Below the pieces are notes generated by a model. It was not told the origin of the DNA, searched no databases, and saw only the letters and a program-made list of their open reading frames with translations. Below are positions 5,837 to 10,362 of a stretch of 37,074 nucleotides of DNA, piece by piece. The translations under genes were made by a program, and so were the position numbers. The stretch spans positions 1-37,074 of the forward strand of contig JAGTQU010000018.1 of the NCBI GenBank assembly GCA_018396695.1, in the 5' to 3' direction. The first letter of the stretch is position 1; the number at the start of each line of letters is the position of its first letter. The stretch comes from Candidatus Bathyarchaeota archaeon (GTDB lineage: Archaea > Thermoproteota > Bathyarchaeia > TCS64).

Positions 5837-6025
5837 TTACCCTATTTCAGACTCTTCTTCATCCTTTTTCAATACTCTTCGCATGAGCAATTTATACTTG
5901 CCATATTTATCATCCAAGGAGAATTTAGCAGGGTGCGGGATCTTCACAGGCCCGTCGCAGATCGGGCAAACCTGCTTCAGAGTATATCTGTCGCATCTTT
6001 TACAGTATCTTAAAAGCCAGACCAT
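5837..6025 (-). CDS. nop10: H/ACA RNP component Nop10
   Basis: This is a 62-residue archaeal Nop10, the small zinc-ribbon protein that binds Cbf5 in H/ACA guide RNPs making pseudouridine in rRNA. The sequence shows the two Cys pairs (YCKRC near residues 7-11 and CPIC near 20-23), the central PHPAKFSLDDKYGKYK block that wraps around Cbf5, and a short acidic tail. Length matches the family. It is the last gene of the operon and lies 22 bases after aIF2-alpha, the classic archaeal arrangement. The PAC2-family gene that often follows is absent. Confidence 0.95.
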   Translation of the reverse strand: MVWLLRYCKRCDRYTLKQVCPICDGPVKIPHPAKFSLDDKYGKYKLLMRRVLKKDEEESEIG

Positions 6026-6047
6026 GGGAGCCCTCAGGCGTTAGGAT

Positions 6048-6845
6048 TCACTCCCTCTTGAAGGAGAATCTGCCATCATGGCTTGACCAAGAGGTTTGCA
6101 CCGTCTCCACGATACTCTCTAGGACGGATTCAGCCTTCTTGTAATCTGCAGAAGTCACTTCAATCCGATATTTTGGAGCCCCAAGCATGTATAGGTTCAC
6201 CTCAGCCTCACTATTTTCGCCTAATTCCTTCGCCTCCGCTAGAACTTTTTTGATCGCTTCTATGCCTCTAGGCTCCATCGAAGTTATCTCGAATGTGCCG
6301 TAGATCGTCACACCTTTAGTAATGATCTTCTCGCGGGCTATCTCCGCTAAGACTTGGGCTGTCCCCTCCAACAATCCCGCATCAACAAGGGCTCTCGCTC
6401 CCTTCTTAACTGACTCTTCTAACCCTGAATATATGCTCCCAAACCTCTCTTCAAGCTTAGGAGCAACCTCTCTGTAAAGTTCGAGCTCGTTGACTTTGAG
6501 GATGCTAGCGGCCGCTTTAATCAGCATCTCAGCTCTACGGTTCTTCTTCCACTCCTCTATCTTCTTACGTTGCTCATCCCTGGAGACGCGCCTCAGGGAG
6601 AGGTCAATCTGCCTTCGAGCCGGGTCGACTCGGAGAACCTGTAGGACAACCTTCTGCCCCTCGCGGACGTAGTTACGTATGTTCCTCACCCATGTTGAAG
6701 AGATCTCGGAGATGTGTAAGAAACCCTCCTTAGAAGGGTACTCATCAAGGGAGACGTAAGCACCATAACTCTCTAGACTCTTCACTGTGGCGACGACGAG
6801 GTTTCCGACTTGGGGCCAGATCTCCTGCTGAAACACTAAGATCAC
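6048..6845 (-). CDS. Translation initiation factor aIF2 subunit alpha
   Basis: This is a 265-residue alpha subunit of the heterotrimeric factor that delivers initiator tRNA to the ribosome. The N-terminal S1 domain (about 10-85) contains the family stretch WPQVGNLVVATVKSLESYGA, then KEGFLHISEIS and VRVDPARRQIDLSLRRV-like strands. It is followed by the helical domain and a C-terminal alpha/beta domain with the GTFEITSMEPRGIEAIKKVL region. The GTG at 6845 overlaps the S27e stop (GTGA), indicating translational coupling; a second GTG three codons later aligns slightly better with relatives. It sits between rps27e and nop10, as in most archaea. Confidence 0.95.
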   Translation of the reverse strand: MILVFQQEIWPQVGNLVVATVKSLESYGAYVSLDEYPSKEGFLHISEISSTWVRNIRNYVREGQKVVLQVLRVDPARRQIDLSLRRVSRDEQRKKIEEWKKNRRAEMLIKAAASILKVNELELYREVAPKLEERFGSIYSGLEESVKKGARALVDAGLLEGTAQVLAEIAREKIITKGVTIYGTFEITSMEPRGIEAIKKVLAEAKELGENSEAEVNLYMLGAPKYRIEVTSADYKKAESVLESIVETVQTSWSSHDGRFSFKRE

Positions 6846-7039
6846 CCTAGAACCGAGATTATCGAGCCTTTAATAATCGCCTTCCCACCTGTTGGAATCG
6901 CAAGGTCTTCCCCGCATGTTCTACATTTAACCAGATGAGTCGAGTGGCTGTAAACTATCTGTTCACCCTCGCATTTACCACACTTTACTTTTAAGAATCT
7001 TGACGAAGGCCTGGGAATGAGGGCTTCCCAATCTGACAA
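6842..7039 (-). CDS. rps27e: 30S ribosomal protein S27e
   Basis: This is a 65-residue small-subunit ribosomal protein with a C4 zinc ribbon: CGKC (20-23) and CRTC (39-42). The SRFLKVKC and PTGGKAIIKG blocks are conserved in the family. A longer frame begins at 7108, but the start is placed at TTG 7039 because GGAGGTGG lies about seven bases upstream, because the resulting 65 residues match family length, and because the longer version would read through L44e codons. Only two bases separate it from the L44e stop. Confidence 0.93.
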   Translation of the reverse strand: MSDWEALIPRPSSRFLKVKCGKCEGEQIVYSHSTHLVKCRTCGEDLAIPTGGKAIIKGSIISVLG

Positions 7040-7041
7040 GA

Positions 7042-7317
7042 CTAGACCACCTCCGCCTTCTTGAGCCTGATACCCTTCCTCTGCATCATGTAGTTGCACT
7101 CCTTGCAACTGAGCTTCAAACTCTGCTTCTTTGTGGTCTTAGCCTGATTGTGTTGGAGGGGGAACTTCTGACCGCCATAGCCTTTCTTCCTCTCAGCCTG
7201 CCTCCTCTCACCTAGCTTCGAACCTCTTCGTTTCCCTGCCTTGTACAGAGTGATCGTGAACTCTCTATGCGTCTTGCATTTCGGGCAGTACGTTGTTAAC
7301 GTTTTTGGAATCTTCAT
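7042..7317 (-). CDS. rpl44e: 50S ribosomal protein L44e
   Basis: This is a 91-residue large-subunit protein of the L44e/eL42 family. It has the two zinc-binding pairs CPKC (about 11-14) and CKEC (about 75-78), a very basic middle (KRRGSKLGERRQAERKKGYG), and the GGQKFPLQ block that contacts the E-site tRNA region. Its ATG lies within four bases of the end of the GINS gene, and S27e follows two bases later, so the whole set is tightly coupled. Confidence 0.95.
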   Translation of the reverse strand: MKIPKTLTTYCPKCKTHREFTITLYKAGKRRGSKLGERRQAERKKGYGGQKFPLQHNQAKTTKKQSLKLSCKECNYMMQRKGIRLKKAEVV

Positions 7318-7877
7318 TCTGGGACCACTATCTCCTTAGCTATTCCCCGCCTTATTAGGTTTTCAGCGTTTTCAGCCGGGAGTGATGCTACGTCCTCAGG
7401 TTGGAATGGGCCATACGTTTTCATATCTATGCCTATGATCGCTGGAAGCGGCTCCATGAACCTCACCACCTTAAACCTCGAGGCTTTAGACTCAACCCCT
7501 ATCCGAGTGGGGTATCCCATTAATATGTTTTTCACCCATTCAGAGTGTTCCCGCAGTATACGCTTCAACTCCGCCTGCAGTTTCCTCTCCTCTGGTGTAA
7601 GCGAGGAAGCTTCTACCGTTTTCCCTTCGAGTTCAGTGTTCAAGATCTTCCTTAACCTGATTCGGGCGAGGTCTTCCAGCATCTGCTCGGCATTCTCTTT
7701 CTCCTTCTCGGATATCCTCCGCTTCATAGACCCCTTCTCGAGCATCCTAGTCTGCCCCCTCAGCTTCGAAGCATACTCTCCCATCTCAGCATAGAAAGAC
7801 TCTGGCAGAGTCTGGATGTCTACGGTGGAGCTCTCCCTCTCCCAAGCCTCGAAAAGCTTATCGTACAGCCCTGTCAA
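7314..7877 (-). CDS. GINS replication complex subunit (Gins51-like)
   Basis: This is a 187-residue GINS protein, part of the CMG replicative helicase with MCM and Cdc45/RecJ. It has the Gins51 domain order: a helical A domain first (YDKLFEAWERE, LPESFYAEMGEYASKL, long charged helices to about residue 120), then a small beta-rich B domain (FMEPLPAIIGIDMKTYGPFQ, ENLIRRGIAKEI). TTG at 7877 overlaps the priS stop codon (TTGA) with a G-rich ribosome-binding region just upstream. Linkage to primase genes is typical in archaea and supports a replisome role. Telling Gins51 from Gins23 rests on domain order only. Confidence 0.88.
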   Translation of the reverse strand: MTGLYDKLFEAWERESSTVDIQTLPESFYAEMGEYASKLRGQTRMLEKGSMKRRISEKEKENAEQMLEDLARIRLRKILNTELEGKTVEASSLTPEERKLQAELKRILREHSEWVKNILMGYPTRIGVESKASRFKVVRFMEPLPAIIGIDMKTYGPFQPEDVASLPAENAENLIRRGIAKEIVVPE

Positions 7878-9103
7878 CCCTCAACCCTCGCGGCTCTCCT
7901 GCATAGAAGAAACACAGCCCCAGCGACTGGGAGAATCGTCTGCTCATCTTTGAAGGGGCCGAGTACTTCATTGCCTATCCTGAACTTGGGAGCTCTCTTA
8001 ACCATGACTCTGATCCGATCTCCTTTGAAAGCGATCGCCCTCGTTAAAGGGTCGTAATCCTCGAGATCGTCTAGGTTCACTCTCTGAGCCATGAATCCAG
8101 TCTTCCCGTGAAGCGTATTCGGGAGTCTTATCAATCGATGGAGGTCAGTTGTCACAACCGTGTCGATGGCTGATGCCTGCTTTTTAATAGATGCTTCAAC
8201 GAGGGCTTGAAGAGACTTTAAATCAAGGTATTTTAAAATCCTGCTCGAATGATCCTCTCTGAGAACCTTCAGGATTTCACTCTTCTCCTCTAGTATGTTC
8301 TTCAAAGCTTGACTACTCAGCTTGAGACCTTGGATAGACGCTTCATCAGCTTCGGACAAGTAATCATACACAGCCCTGGCGGTTCTTCCCCTCCAGCCTG
8401 GGTCAGCCATCGTTGAAGCTCCGCCCCGGGTTCTCGAGAAGCCGTGAAACTCAACCTTCAACCCTGTACCCGTGATGTAGTCTACTATTTCCCGCCTCCC
8501 GATCTGGTCGAGTTTATGAATCATAGGCGCTTTCACATGGACGTGGTATCCCCGGTTCCCTGTGAAGTTAACCTCGAGGTCGAGGGGCGTGAAGCCGAGA
8601 TCCTGGATTAGGATATCAATGAGCTTCTGAGCCTCGAATTTTGCAGCTTCGAGACATCTATCGCATAGCCAGGCCTCTTCTTCGAAGGAGTTCTTTCCGC
8701 ATCTAGAGCAGGTTTGAGGAGCTCGGCCCCTCCCCTCTAAACCGCATGATTTACAGATCCAATTATCATGGTCCTCCTTGCATGCTGTATCGATGTGGTC
8801 GGCGTCTATGTCGAAAACCAGGTCTGCCCCTAGCCAGCACTTCTTATCCATCTCCGCTTCAGGGTTCTTATAGTAGGCAGAGGAGTAGTAGATATGAGCA
8901 GGAGTGTTCTCAACTATGGCTGACCTCAACTGATCCTCGTTGTTGAATGAGAGGTGACGTATCATGGTCTTCCCCTCGAAGGATAGGAAGCCGAACTCTC
9001 TTCGGAGAATCTCTGTTGGAGCTTTCACAAATTTAGATTTGGCCTCGTAGAATCGTCTGAACTGATTCTTCACGAATCTAATGCTTCCCCAATCTTCACT
9101 CAT
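7874..9103 (-). CDS. priS: DNA primase catalytic small subunit PriS
   Basis: This is a 409-residue archaeo-eukaryotic primase catalytic subunit that synthesises RNA/DNA primers with PriL. Visible motifs are FGFLSFEG, RHLSF, the metal-binding VFDIDADHID (Asp98, Asp100), a zinc-binding insert with Cys pairs at about 117/120, 132/135 and 147/150, the nucleotide-binding TGNRGYHVHV (181-190), and HRLIRLPNTLHGKTGF. The frame extends upstream to 9199, but ATG 9103 is chosen because AGGAGG lies about nine bases before it and family alignments begin there. The upstream part overlaps a small Cys-protein gene in another frame. Its stop overlaps the GINS start. Confidence 0.94.
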   Translation of the reverse strand: MSEDWGSIRFVKNQFRRFYEAKSKFVKAPTEILRREFGFLSFEGKTMIRHLSFNNEDQLRSAIVENTPAHIYYSSAYYKNPEAEMDKKCWLGADLVFDIDADHIDTACKEDHDNWICKSCGLEGRGRAPQTCSRCGKNSFEEEAWLCDRCLEAAKFEAQKLIDILIQDLGFTPLDLEVNFTGNRGYHVHVKAPMIHKLDQIGRREIVDYITGTGLKVEFHGFSRTRGGASTMADPGWRGRTARAVYDYLSEADEASIQGLKLSSQALKNILEEKSEILKVLREDHSSRILKYLDLKSLQALVEASIKKQASAIDTVVTTDLHRLIRLPNTLHGKTGFMAQRVNLDDLEDYDPLTRAIAFKGDRIRVMVKRAPKFRIGNEVLGPFKDEQTILPVAGAVFLLCRRAARVEG

Positions 9104-9116
9104 TCTAAGCTTCCTC

Positions 9117-9278
9117 CTAAGTTGCTGAGGCGATGGAGGATTGATCCCTTGCCTTTTGAACCCCGTTGAATGGACAGATCCCACATAGTTCAGCATCATA
9201 TCTGACCAGATTCATATAGCGCCGGCAGTAGTGTAAACCCCTCAGCTTAAACTGCTGCTCTTCAATCTTCTCAGCCAC
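9117..9278 (-). CDS. 53-residue Cys-containing protein between priL and priS
   Basis: A small frame runs from GTG 9278 to TAG 9117-9119. GGAGG stands about seven bases before the GTG, the start follows the priL stop by one base, and its stop lies inside the priS ribosome-binding region. The product begins MAEKIEEQQFKLRGLHYC and contains Cys18 and a CGIC pair at 32-35 in the context YMNLVRYDAELCGICPF, which could bind one metal ion with another ligand such as His16. I do not recognise the family. Spacing and ribosome-binding site make it a convincing gene. An involvement with primase is inference from position. Confidence 0.65.
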   Translation of the reverse strand: MAEKIEEQQFKLRGLHYCRRYMNLVRYDAELCGICPFNGVQKARDQSSIASAT

Positions 9279-9279
9279 T

Positions 9280-10362
9280 CTATATTCCTCCTTGATGATT
9301 AGAACCAGTTATCCCTAGACTTGTTTTCTCTCCTCCCTTAATCGATTGAACTCTACGCTTATAATAGGTTAGAGGATGCTTAACTCCTTTACAGTAGATG
9401 TCAGGGTTATAGCAGACGCCGTGGGTACGCATTGTGGCGCAGTTTGGAGGCGTATACCTCGTCCGGCTACCCCTGAGACCGGCGATGTGCTCGATCTGGT
9501 ATTTTGTAAGCTGCTCATCAAAGTCCGTTACAGAGACGAAGAGCTGCAAAATCTGCTCAAGGTCCATCCCAGAGTTGACGAGGAACGATGTAAGCGCGAA
9601 CCTCTCCATGTGCGAAGCCCTCCTGCCTGAGAGGAGCCCCTCGAAGGCGTGCTTGATACATGGCGGAAAGGCTTCGCTTACAGCTTCGGGTGGAAGCTCT
9701 GCTCCACTGATCCTTCTTCTATGCTCCTCAAAGAGCTTGGAGATATTTTCAACCCTAGCTTGAACCGTTTCAGGAATCTCGACCCTGATATGCTTAGAGA
9801 CTCTGCCGAGTACGAAATCTTCAACCTCTACCTGTAGTAGCCTTATTACCTCCATCCTAGTCAGGAGGACCCTTCCACCGGATAAGACGCGGTTAACCAG
9901 CTTCCATTTATCCTCATGGAAGGATCCAGCGTTTCTCAGGTAGTCTACGAAACCCACTTCGAAAAGGTATGTCTGCTCATCCAGCTCACGCCGCGCATAT
10001 TTTATCTCCCAACCGAATTGCCTCTTAGCAAGCTCGGCTATGAAGGCTTCACTCTCACTCCAGAGTAGCTTCTGAGCCCTCGCCGCTTCTGCGTGAGCGT
10101 ATCTCCTTTCAAGAAATCTGTCTCCAACTGCAGAAACGAGCATTATGGCGACGGGCATTGAGAGTAACTCCGTCAAATCATCTGGGACTCCATTCCCTAC
10201 TATGCCATCGATTATTGCTTCGGAGACGCGTCTCTCACCCCGATCGAGGATCCTCGAGTAATTTGGGTTAGCTAAGTCTTCCACTTTGATGTTCAGAGTC
10301 TCCACGAGGGAGGTCGCCTCTTTCAGGAACGGATATTTGGCTGCCTCCCTCTCAGATATCAT
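9280..10362 (-). CDS. priL: DNA primase large subunit PriL
   Basis: This is the 360-residue Fe-S subunit of archaeal primase, which regulates PriS and helps initiate primers. The N-terminal two thirds are helical. The C-terminal domain carries four Cys expected to hold the 4Fe-4S cluster: Cys235 (PPCIKHAFEGL), Cys308 (PPNC), Cys317 (GVC) and Cys324 (YC), with the typical TRYTPPNCATMRTHGVC and GVKHPLTYYKRR blocks. The start ATG 10362 follows a TATA-like box at 10390-10401 at a distance suggesting a very short 5' leader. It heads the eight-gene minus-strand operon ending in nop10. Confidence 0.94.
   Translation of the reverse strand: MISEREAAKYPFLKEATSLVETLNIKVEDLANPNYSRILDRGERRVSEAIIDGIVGNGVPDDLTELLSMPVAIMLVSAVGDRFLERRYAHAEAARAQKLLWSESEAFIAELAKRQFGWEIKYARRELDEQTYLFEVGFVDYLRNAGSFHEDKWKLVNRVLSGGRVLLTRMEVIRLLQVEVEDFVLGRVSKHIRVEIPETVQARVENISKLFEEHRRRISGAELPPEAVSEAFPPCIKHAFEGLLSGRRASHMERFALTSFLVNSGMDLEQILQLFVSVTDFDEQLTKYQIEHIAGLRGSRTRYTPPNCATMRTHGVCYNPDIYCKGVKHPLTYYKRRVQSIKGGEKTSLGITGSNHQGGI

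Follow-up and report, generated by a model that had tools for sequence, protein, structure and literature searches.

In the Sulfolobales, archaeal primase is known to carry a third subunit, PriX, a protein of 154 amino acids that resembles the C-terminal domain of PriL, stands in for its Fe-S domain and binds NTPs through D70, R72 and R74 (PMC5700102). The gene for the small subunit, priS, is known from an archaeal replication-translation cluster, given as PCNA-PriS-Gins15 / L44E-S27E-aIF2alpha-Nop10 in the passages of PMC2643942 that deal with it. Archaeal zinc-finger microproteins have been described in Haloferax volcanii, where HVO_2753 and HVO_0758 have two C(P)XCG motifs (PMC11241148). 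We analyzed a stretch of 37,074 nucleotides from a Candidatus Bathyarchaeota archaeon (contig JAGTQU010000018.1), referred to as the window, in which a gene for a protein of 53 amino acids lies between the genes of the two primase subunits. It appears to encode an archaeal zinc-type microprotein of a family unrecorded in the libraries searched, set within a much-studied replication locus.

The small gene and its surroundings

The features of the locus in the window are as follows.

5837..7317, minus strand: rpl44e, rps27e, aIF2-alpha and nop10, the remainder of the replication-translation cluster
7314..7877, minus strand: gins51/gins15 (PF22090), which comes after priS in relatives also
7874..9103, minus strand: priS, primase small subunit (PF01896; PDB matches to PriS), with the ATG at 9103 backed by relatives
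9113..9117, minus strand: GGAGG, resembling a ribosome-binding site (RBS) for priS, with a 1-base overlap with the small-gene stop and 9 nt 5' of the priS ATG
9117..9278, minus strand: the small gene, 53 amino acids, GTG start, VAEKIEEQQFKLRGLHYCRRYMNLVRYDAELCGICPFNGVQKARDQSSIASAT
9280..10362, minus strand: priL, primase large subunit, 360 amino acids (PF04104), with all four cysteines of the C-terminal Fe-S motif
9287..9293, minus strand: AAGGAGG, RBS-like, for the small gene, within the last codons of priL and 8 nt 5' of the GTG

The genes that flank the small gene match the cluster as set out in PMC2643942, and this cluster is kept around the small gene in relatives. The locus differs from that description in having priL, not the PCNA gene, upstream of priS, and a small gene of such kind is not mentioned in the passages on the cluster.

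Reading of the minus strand places the GTG at 9278 and a TAG stop at 9119-9117, with a single base (9279) between the priL stop (9282-9280) and the GTG. On the plus strand, the reading of 9117-9278 is interrupted by stops. The original prediction had set the gene one base after the priL stop, with a GGAGG of its own and an end within the priS ribosome-binding site, and had located Cys18 and a CGIC pair, which is C32 and C35; all of these agree with the sequence. It had given no strand, which is minus, and had overlooked an invariant histidine, H16.

A mechanically called priS ORF (7874-9199, minus strand) starts at an ATG at 9199, inside the small gene and in another frame; relatives back the ATG at 9103. 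Because the longest priS ORF crosses the small gene in this way, automatic gene callers may hide it.

Conservation, distribution and loss

The length of the ORF is uninformative, since frames of this size are common by chance: the window holds 133 ORFs of at least 53 amino acids, against 128 in shuffles (about 3.5 per kb shuffled). This is the one point in favor of reading it as a chance ORF or as DNA that is conserved but not coding, such as a regulatory RNA or the 3' end of priL. When 60 related genomes were searched with the 53-mer, and a family profile was run as well, homologues emerged in 22 genomes, namely 21 of the 27 genomes of the window's family (the window genome included) and one (G027) of a sister family in the same order. 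In all 22, which span eight genera, the gene sits between priL and priS. The profile matches reach an E-value of 7e-24, and the homologues are 40-65 amino acids long, their starts being partly uncertain. Eight residues are invariant (G14, L15, H16, C18, N23, V25, C32 and C35; pattern G-L-H-x-C-x4-N-x-V-x6-C-x2-C) within an aligned core, residues 14-39, of the form G-L-H-[YFH]-C-x2-[YF]-x-N-[LVI]-V-[RK]-[YF]-[ND]-x3-C-x2-C.

Across the 26 codons of the core the mean pN is 0.26 and the mean pS 0.68 (pN/pS about 0.41), with pN below pS in 228 of 231 pairs, and variability is greatest at third codon positions, by a factor of about two. Shifted into either of the other two frames, this DNA yields a pN of 0.35 and a pS of 0.29-0.32 (pN/pS about 1.1-1.2). 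No stop falls within the core frame in any of the 22 genomes. Comparison at the codon level shows purifying selection on the small gene as a protein; a pN/pS far under 1 that is confined to this frame, the invariant residues, the open core and the profile E-values refute the chance or non-coding reading, to which we give next to no credence. That the small gene is genuine is virtually certain. The original prediction had looked to the priL-priS interval of other archaea for conservation of the three cysteines with mostly synonymous changes, and this was found across 22 genomes; stops in the frame, which it had named as counter-evidence, were not encountered, the core frame being open in every homologue. 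In-frame TAG and TAA codons flagged in the homologue search sit just past the gene's own stop, and so do not point to pyrrolysine or recoding. A separate scan of genome contigs with the 53-mer gave no match; a PriS scan matched QMXQ01000021.1 (Candidatus Bathyarchaeota B46_G15).

The class comprises 257 genomes; besides the carriers, none of the other 235 has the gene, and neither does any further member of the phylum sample (398). The class-wide profile search gave 32 matches at E<=0.05; 22 were accepted as real. Weak class and phylum matches (E 0.002-0.05) were partial or stop-interrupted and were rejected, as was a match in L084 to the CxxC zinc ribbon of a 172-residue ORF. A match in the window's own genome (L002, E 0.08) is to a RICGICPVS motif and is a chance one; from its sequence we take the protein to be the large subunit of a [NiFe]-hydrogenase. 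As judged from these searches, the microprotein gene is restricted to one order-level lineage of Bathyarchaeia.

Six members of the window's family lack the gene: G006, G011 and G016 (genus g7), G001 (genus g2), G018 and G022. G006, G011 and G001 have an intact priL-priS junction, spaced by only 58-142 nt, from which the small gene is missing; in G016 a contig end is near, upstream of priS. No priS was detected in G018 and G022, so that the absence there may be incompleteness. On the PriS tree G001 is nested among carriers, which indicates loss in that genome; the placement of g7 and of f3 is uncertain. Family members that have priL and priS and lack the small gene mark it as dispensable, an accessory gene and not one for an essential core subunit of primase. 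No clear change in PriL or PriS accompanies its absence, only lineage differences that are mostly not seen in G001, and the Fe-S cysteines of PriL are retained in carriers and non-carriers alike.

This dispensability is one reason to consider that the protein is a passenger: a metal-binding microprotein, specific to the lineage and with a function unrelated to primase (perhaps in association with the ribosome, as for L44e and S27e), that was born in the gap and kept there by the stability of the cluster. The host cluster, as described in the relevant passages of PMC2643942, mixes replication and translation genes, many relatives have a promoter-like element belonging to the small gene itself, and the same gap has received another insertion in G030, a genome of a related family without the small gene. 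The genes inserted into the priL-priS gap there (L036:703-1432) encode a minimal nucleotidyltransferase (PF01909) together with a HEPN protein (PF05168) and form a typical toxin-antitoxin-like pair. A passenger is harder to reconcile with a location that is unchanged through 22 genomes and eight genera, the sister family included, and with the tight packing between priL and priS in the window genome. We regard this explanation as possible, if on the doubtful side.

Predicted fold and metal site

AlphaFold2 models of two members both comprise a hairpin, a short helix and a CxxC turn (hairpin 15-18 and 23-26, and helix 29-32, in the numbering of the window protein), with an additional N-terminal helix in the second. 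The core has a pLDDT of about 75-85; confidence for the whole model is low, 67-72. The invariant HxC...CxxC residues H16, C18, C32 and C35 are candidate ligands. In the core, H16 and C18 would sit on a beta-hairpin, after which come the short helix and a C32-x2-C35 knuckle, with one metal ion, probably zinc, held between them. From the invariant residues we consider it likely that the small protein binds a metal, zinc being the probable one; among haloarchaeal microproteins with C(P)XCG-type motifs some are metal-free, a state that AlphaFold2 cannot tell from the other (PMC11241148).

The resemblance to HVO_2753 and HVO_0758 lies in archaeal origin, a length below 70 amino acids, a CxxC and a probable single metal site. 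The two C(P)XCG motifs of those proteins contrast with one CxxC and an invariant HxC here, and family searches found no family common to them and the small protein. Searches of Pfam, NCBIfam, PHROGs and PADLOC yielded no convincing family shared by the members; matches were scattered and weak, the best with an E-value of 0.0018 in one member, and no family appeared in more than five of the 22. The PDB held no sequence family for it, and the fold search gave no match of note. A match to the RBM5 zinc finger (E 0.22) is at chance level. A viral origin was set aside, as one scan of viral contigs gave no relative and PHROGs no consistent match. The open-access literature searched yielded no account of a protein like this.

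PriX offers a parallel as a small, lineage-specific protein tied to PriS and PriL, if an accessory role holds. It differs in its 154 residues against 40-65, and the small protein resembles neither PriL nor PriS. Homology to PriX or to the C-terminal domain of PriL was rejected, the profile comparison being negative (hhalign probability against the PriL profile, 0.6%), and the alignment of the small protein has no conserved D-x-R-x-R of the NTP-binding type that PriX requires for initiation. In contrast to PriX, the small protein does not substitute for the Fe-S domain of PriL, whose motif is complete alongside it.

Expression signals and possible roles

In the window genome, the RBS, the 1-nt gap to priL and the overlap of the small-gene stop with the priS RBS imply joint translation with both primase subunits; neither of the TATA-like boxes seen in relatives is evident there, and the gene is packed between priL and priS with RBSs. 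In 11 relatives (genera g2 and g6), a TATA-like 12-mer close to AACCCTCAAATA has its end 24-30 nt upstream of the start codon, and the same element occurs at other distances in genus g4 and in G004 (example sites of AACCCTCAAATA are G015:C99:6263-6275 and G014:C65:7156-7168). If the element acts as an archaeal TATA box, transcripts would, at the former spacing, start on the start codon or immediately upstream of it and so be leaderless. This spacing suggests that the small gene has a leaderless promoter of its own in the 11 relatives. The element is near-invariant across three genera, whatever the priL frame: it lies over the 3' end of priL in two frames, read as NPQIS in G014 and as PSNT in G003, G015 and others, and in G008 and G004 it falls at or just past the priL stop. 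Overlap with priL in differing frames indicates that it is conserved as DNA and not as a PriL peptide. The exact AACCCTCAAATAY occurs once per genome, always upstream of the small gene, in the five of five relatives searched, and is therefore not a common promoter word. The constraint on the 12-mer exceeds that of an ordinary TATA box.

The distance from the small gene to priS ranges among carriers from 13 to over 60 nt, and in many relatives this interval contains another TATA-like box that is rich in T. Since in most relatives priS and the small gene both seem to be equipped with a promoter, strict stoichiometric co-expression is not general.

These signals bear on the proposal that the small protein, or its translation as a leader peptide, controls priS or the primase cluster as a whole, perhaps through binding to DNA or RNA at the junction. 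Such control would agree with a gene placed directly before the priS promoter or RBS in 22 of 22 genomes, with the overlap of its stop and the priS RBS in the window, and with a near-invariant upstream 12-mer that is single-copy in the five relatives searched. Against it, 26 conserved residues exceed what a leader peptide needs, the spacing of the 12-mer is in keeping with a TATA-like promoter, the window genome has no such 12-mer, and the distance to priS is variable. We consider regulation of this kind quite improbable.

The best explanation as a whole, to which we give close to an even chance but not quite that, is a lineage-specific zinc-type microprotein co-expressed with primase and acting most probably as an accessory of primase or the replisome. 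In the window genome it would be made together with both primase subunits. Its metal-held knuckle might then dock on PriS or PriL, or on nearby primed or single-stranded DNA, and once docked might modulate primer synthesis or hand-off, an action read from the position of the gene. The original prediction had spoken of an unrecognized replication accessory: the protein is real, conserved and without a library family, and the accessory role is read from the gene's position. Adjacency of priL and priS occurs without the gene too (G006, G011, G001, G029, G033 and G051), which makes co-location weak evidence for a physical partnership; we hold a role as an accessory of primase or the replisome as tentative, somewhat short of even confidence. 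A stronger form of the proposal, that archaeal primase gained a third subunit in one lineage of Bathyarchaeia, this metal-holding protein with no kinship to PriX, and that it modulates primer initiation or hand-off, we consider unlikely. If correct, small primase subunits would have been invented twice, independently. Binding to PriSL would place a second small subunit beside PriX and would mean that the two-subunit archaeal primase acquires lineage-specific regulators.

PriS itself has an insert (window 8650-8780, minus strand) with eight Cys/His that are invariant in the sampled class members, the ligand-type residues being C109, H113, C118, C121, C133, C136, C148 and C151. The PriS of S. 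solfataricus gives only a loose alignment at this insert. Solved archaeal PriS structures have a single zinc site, with fewer ligands than the eight of the insert here.
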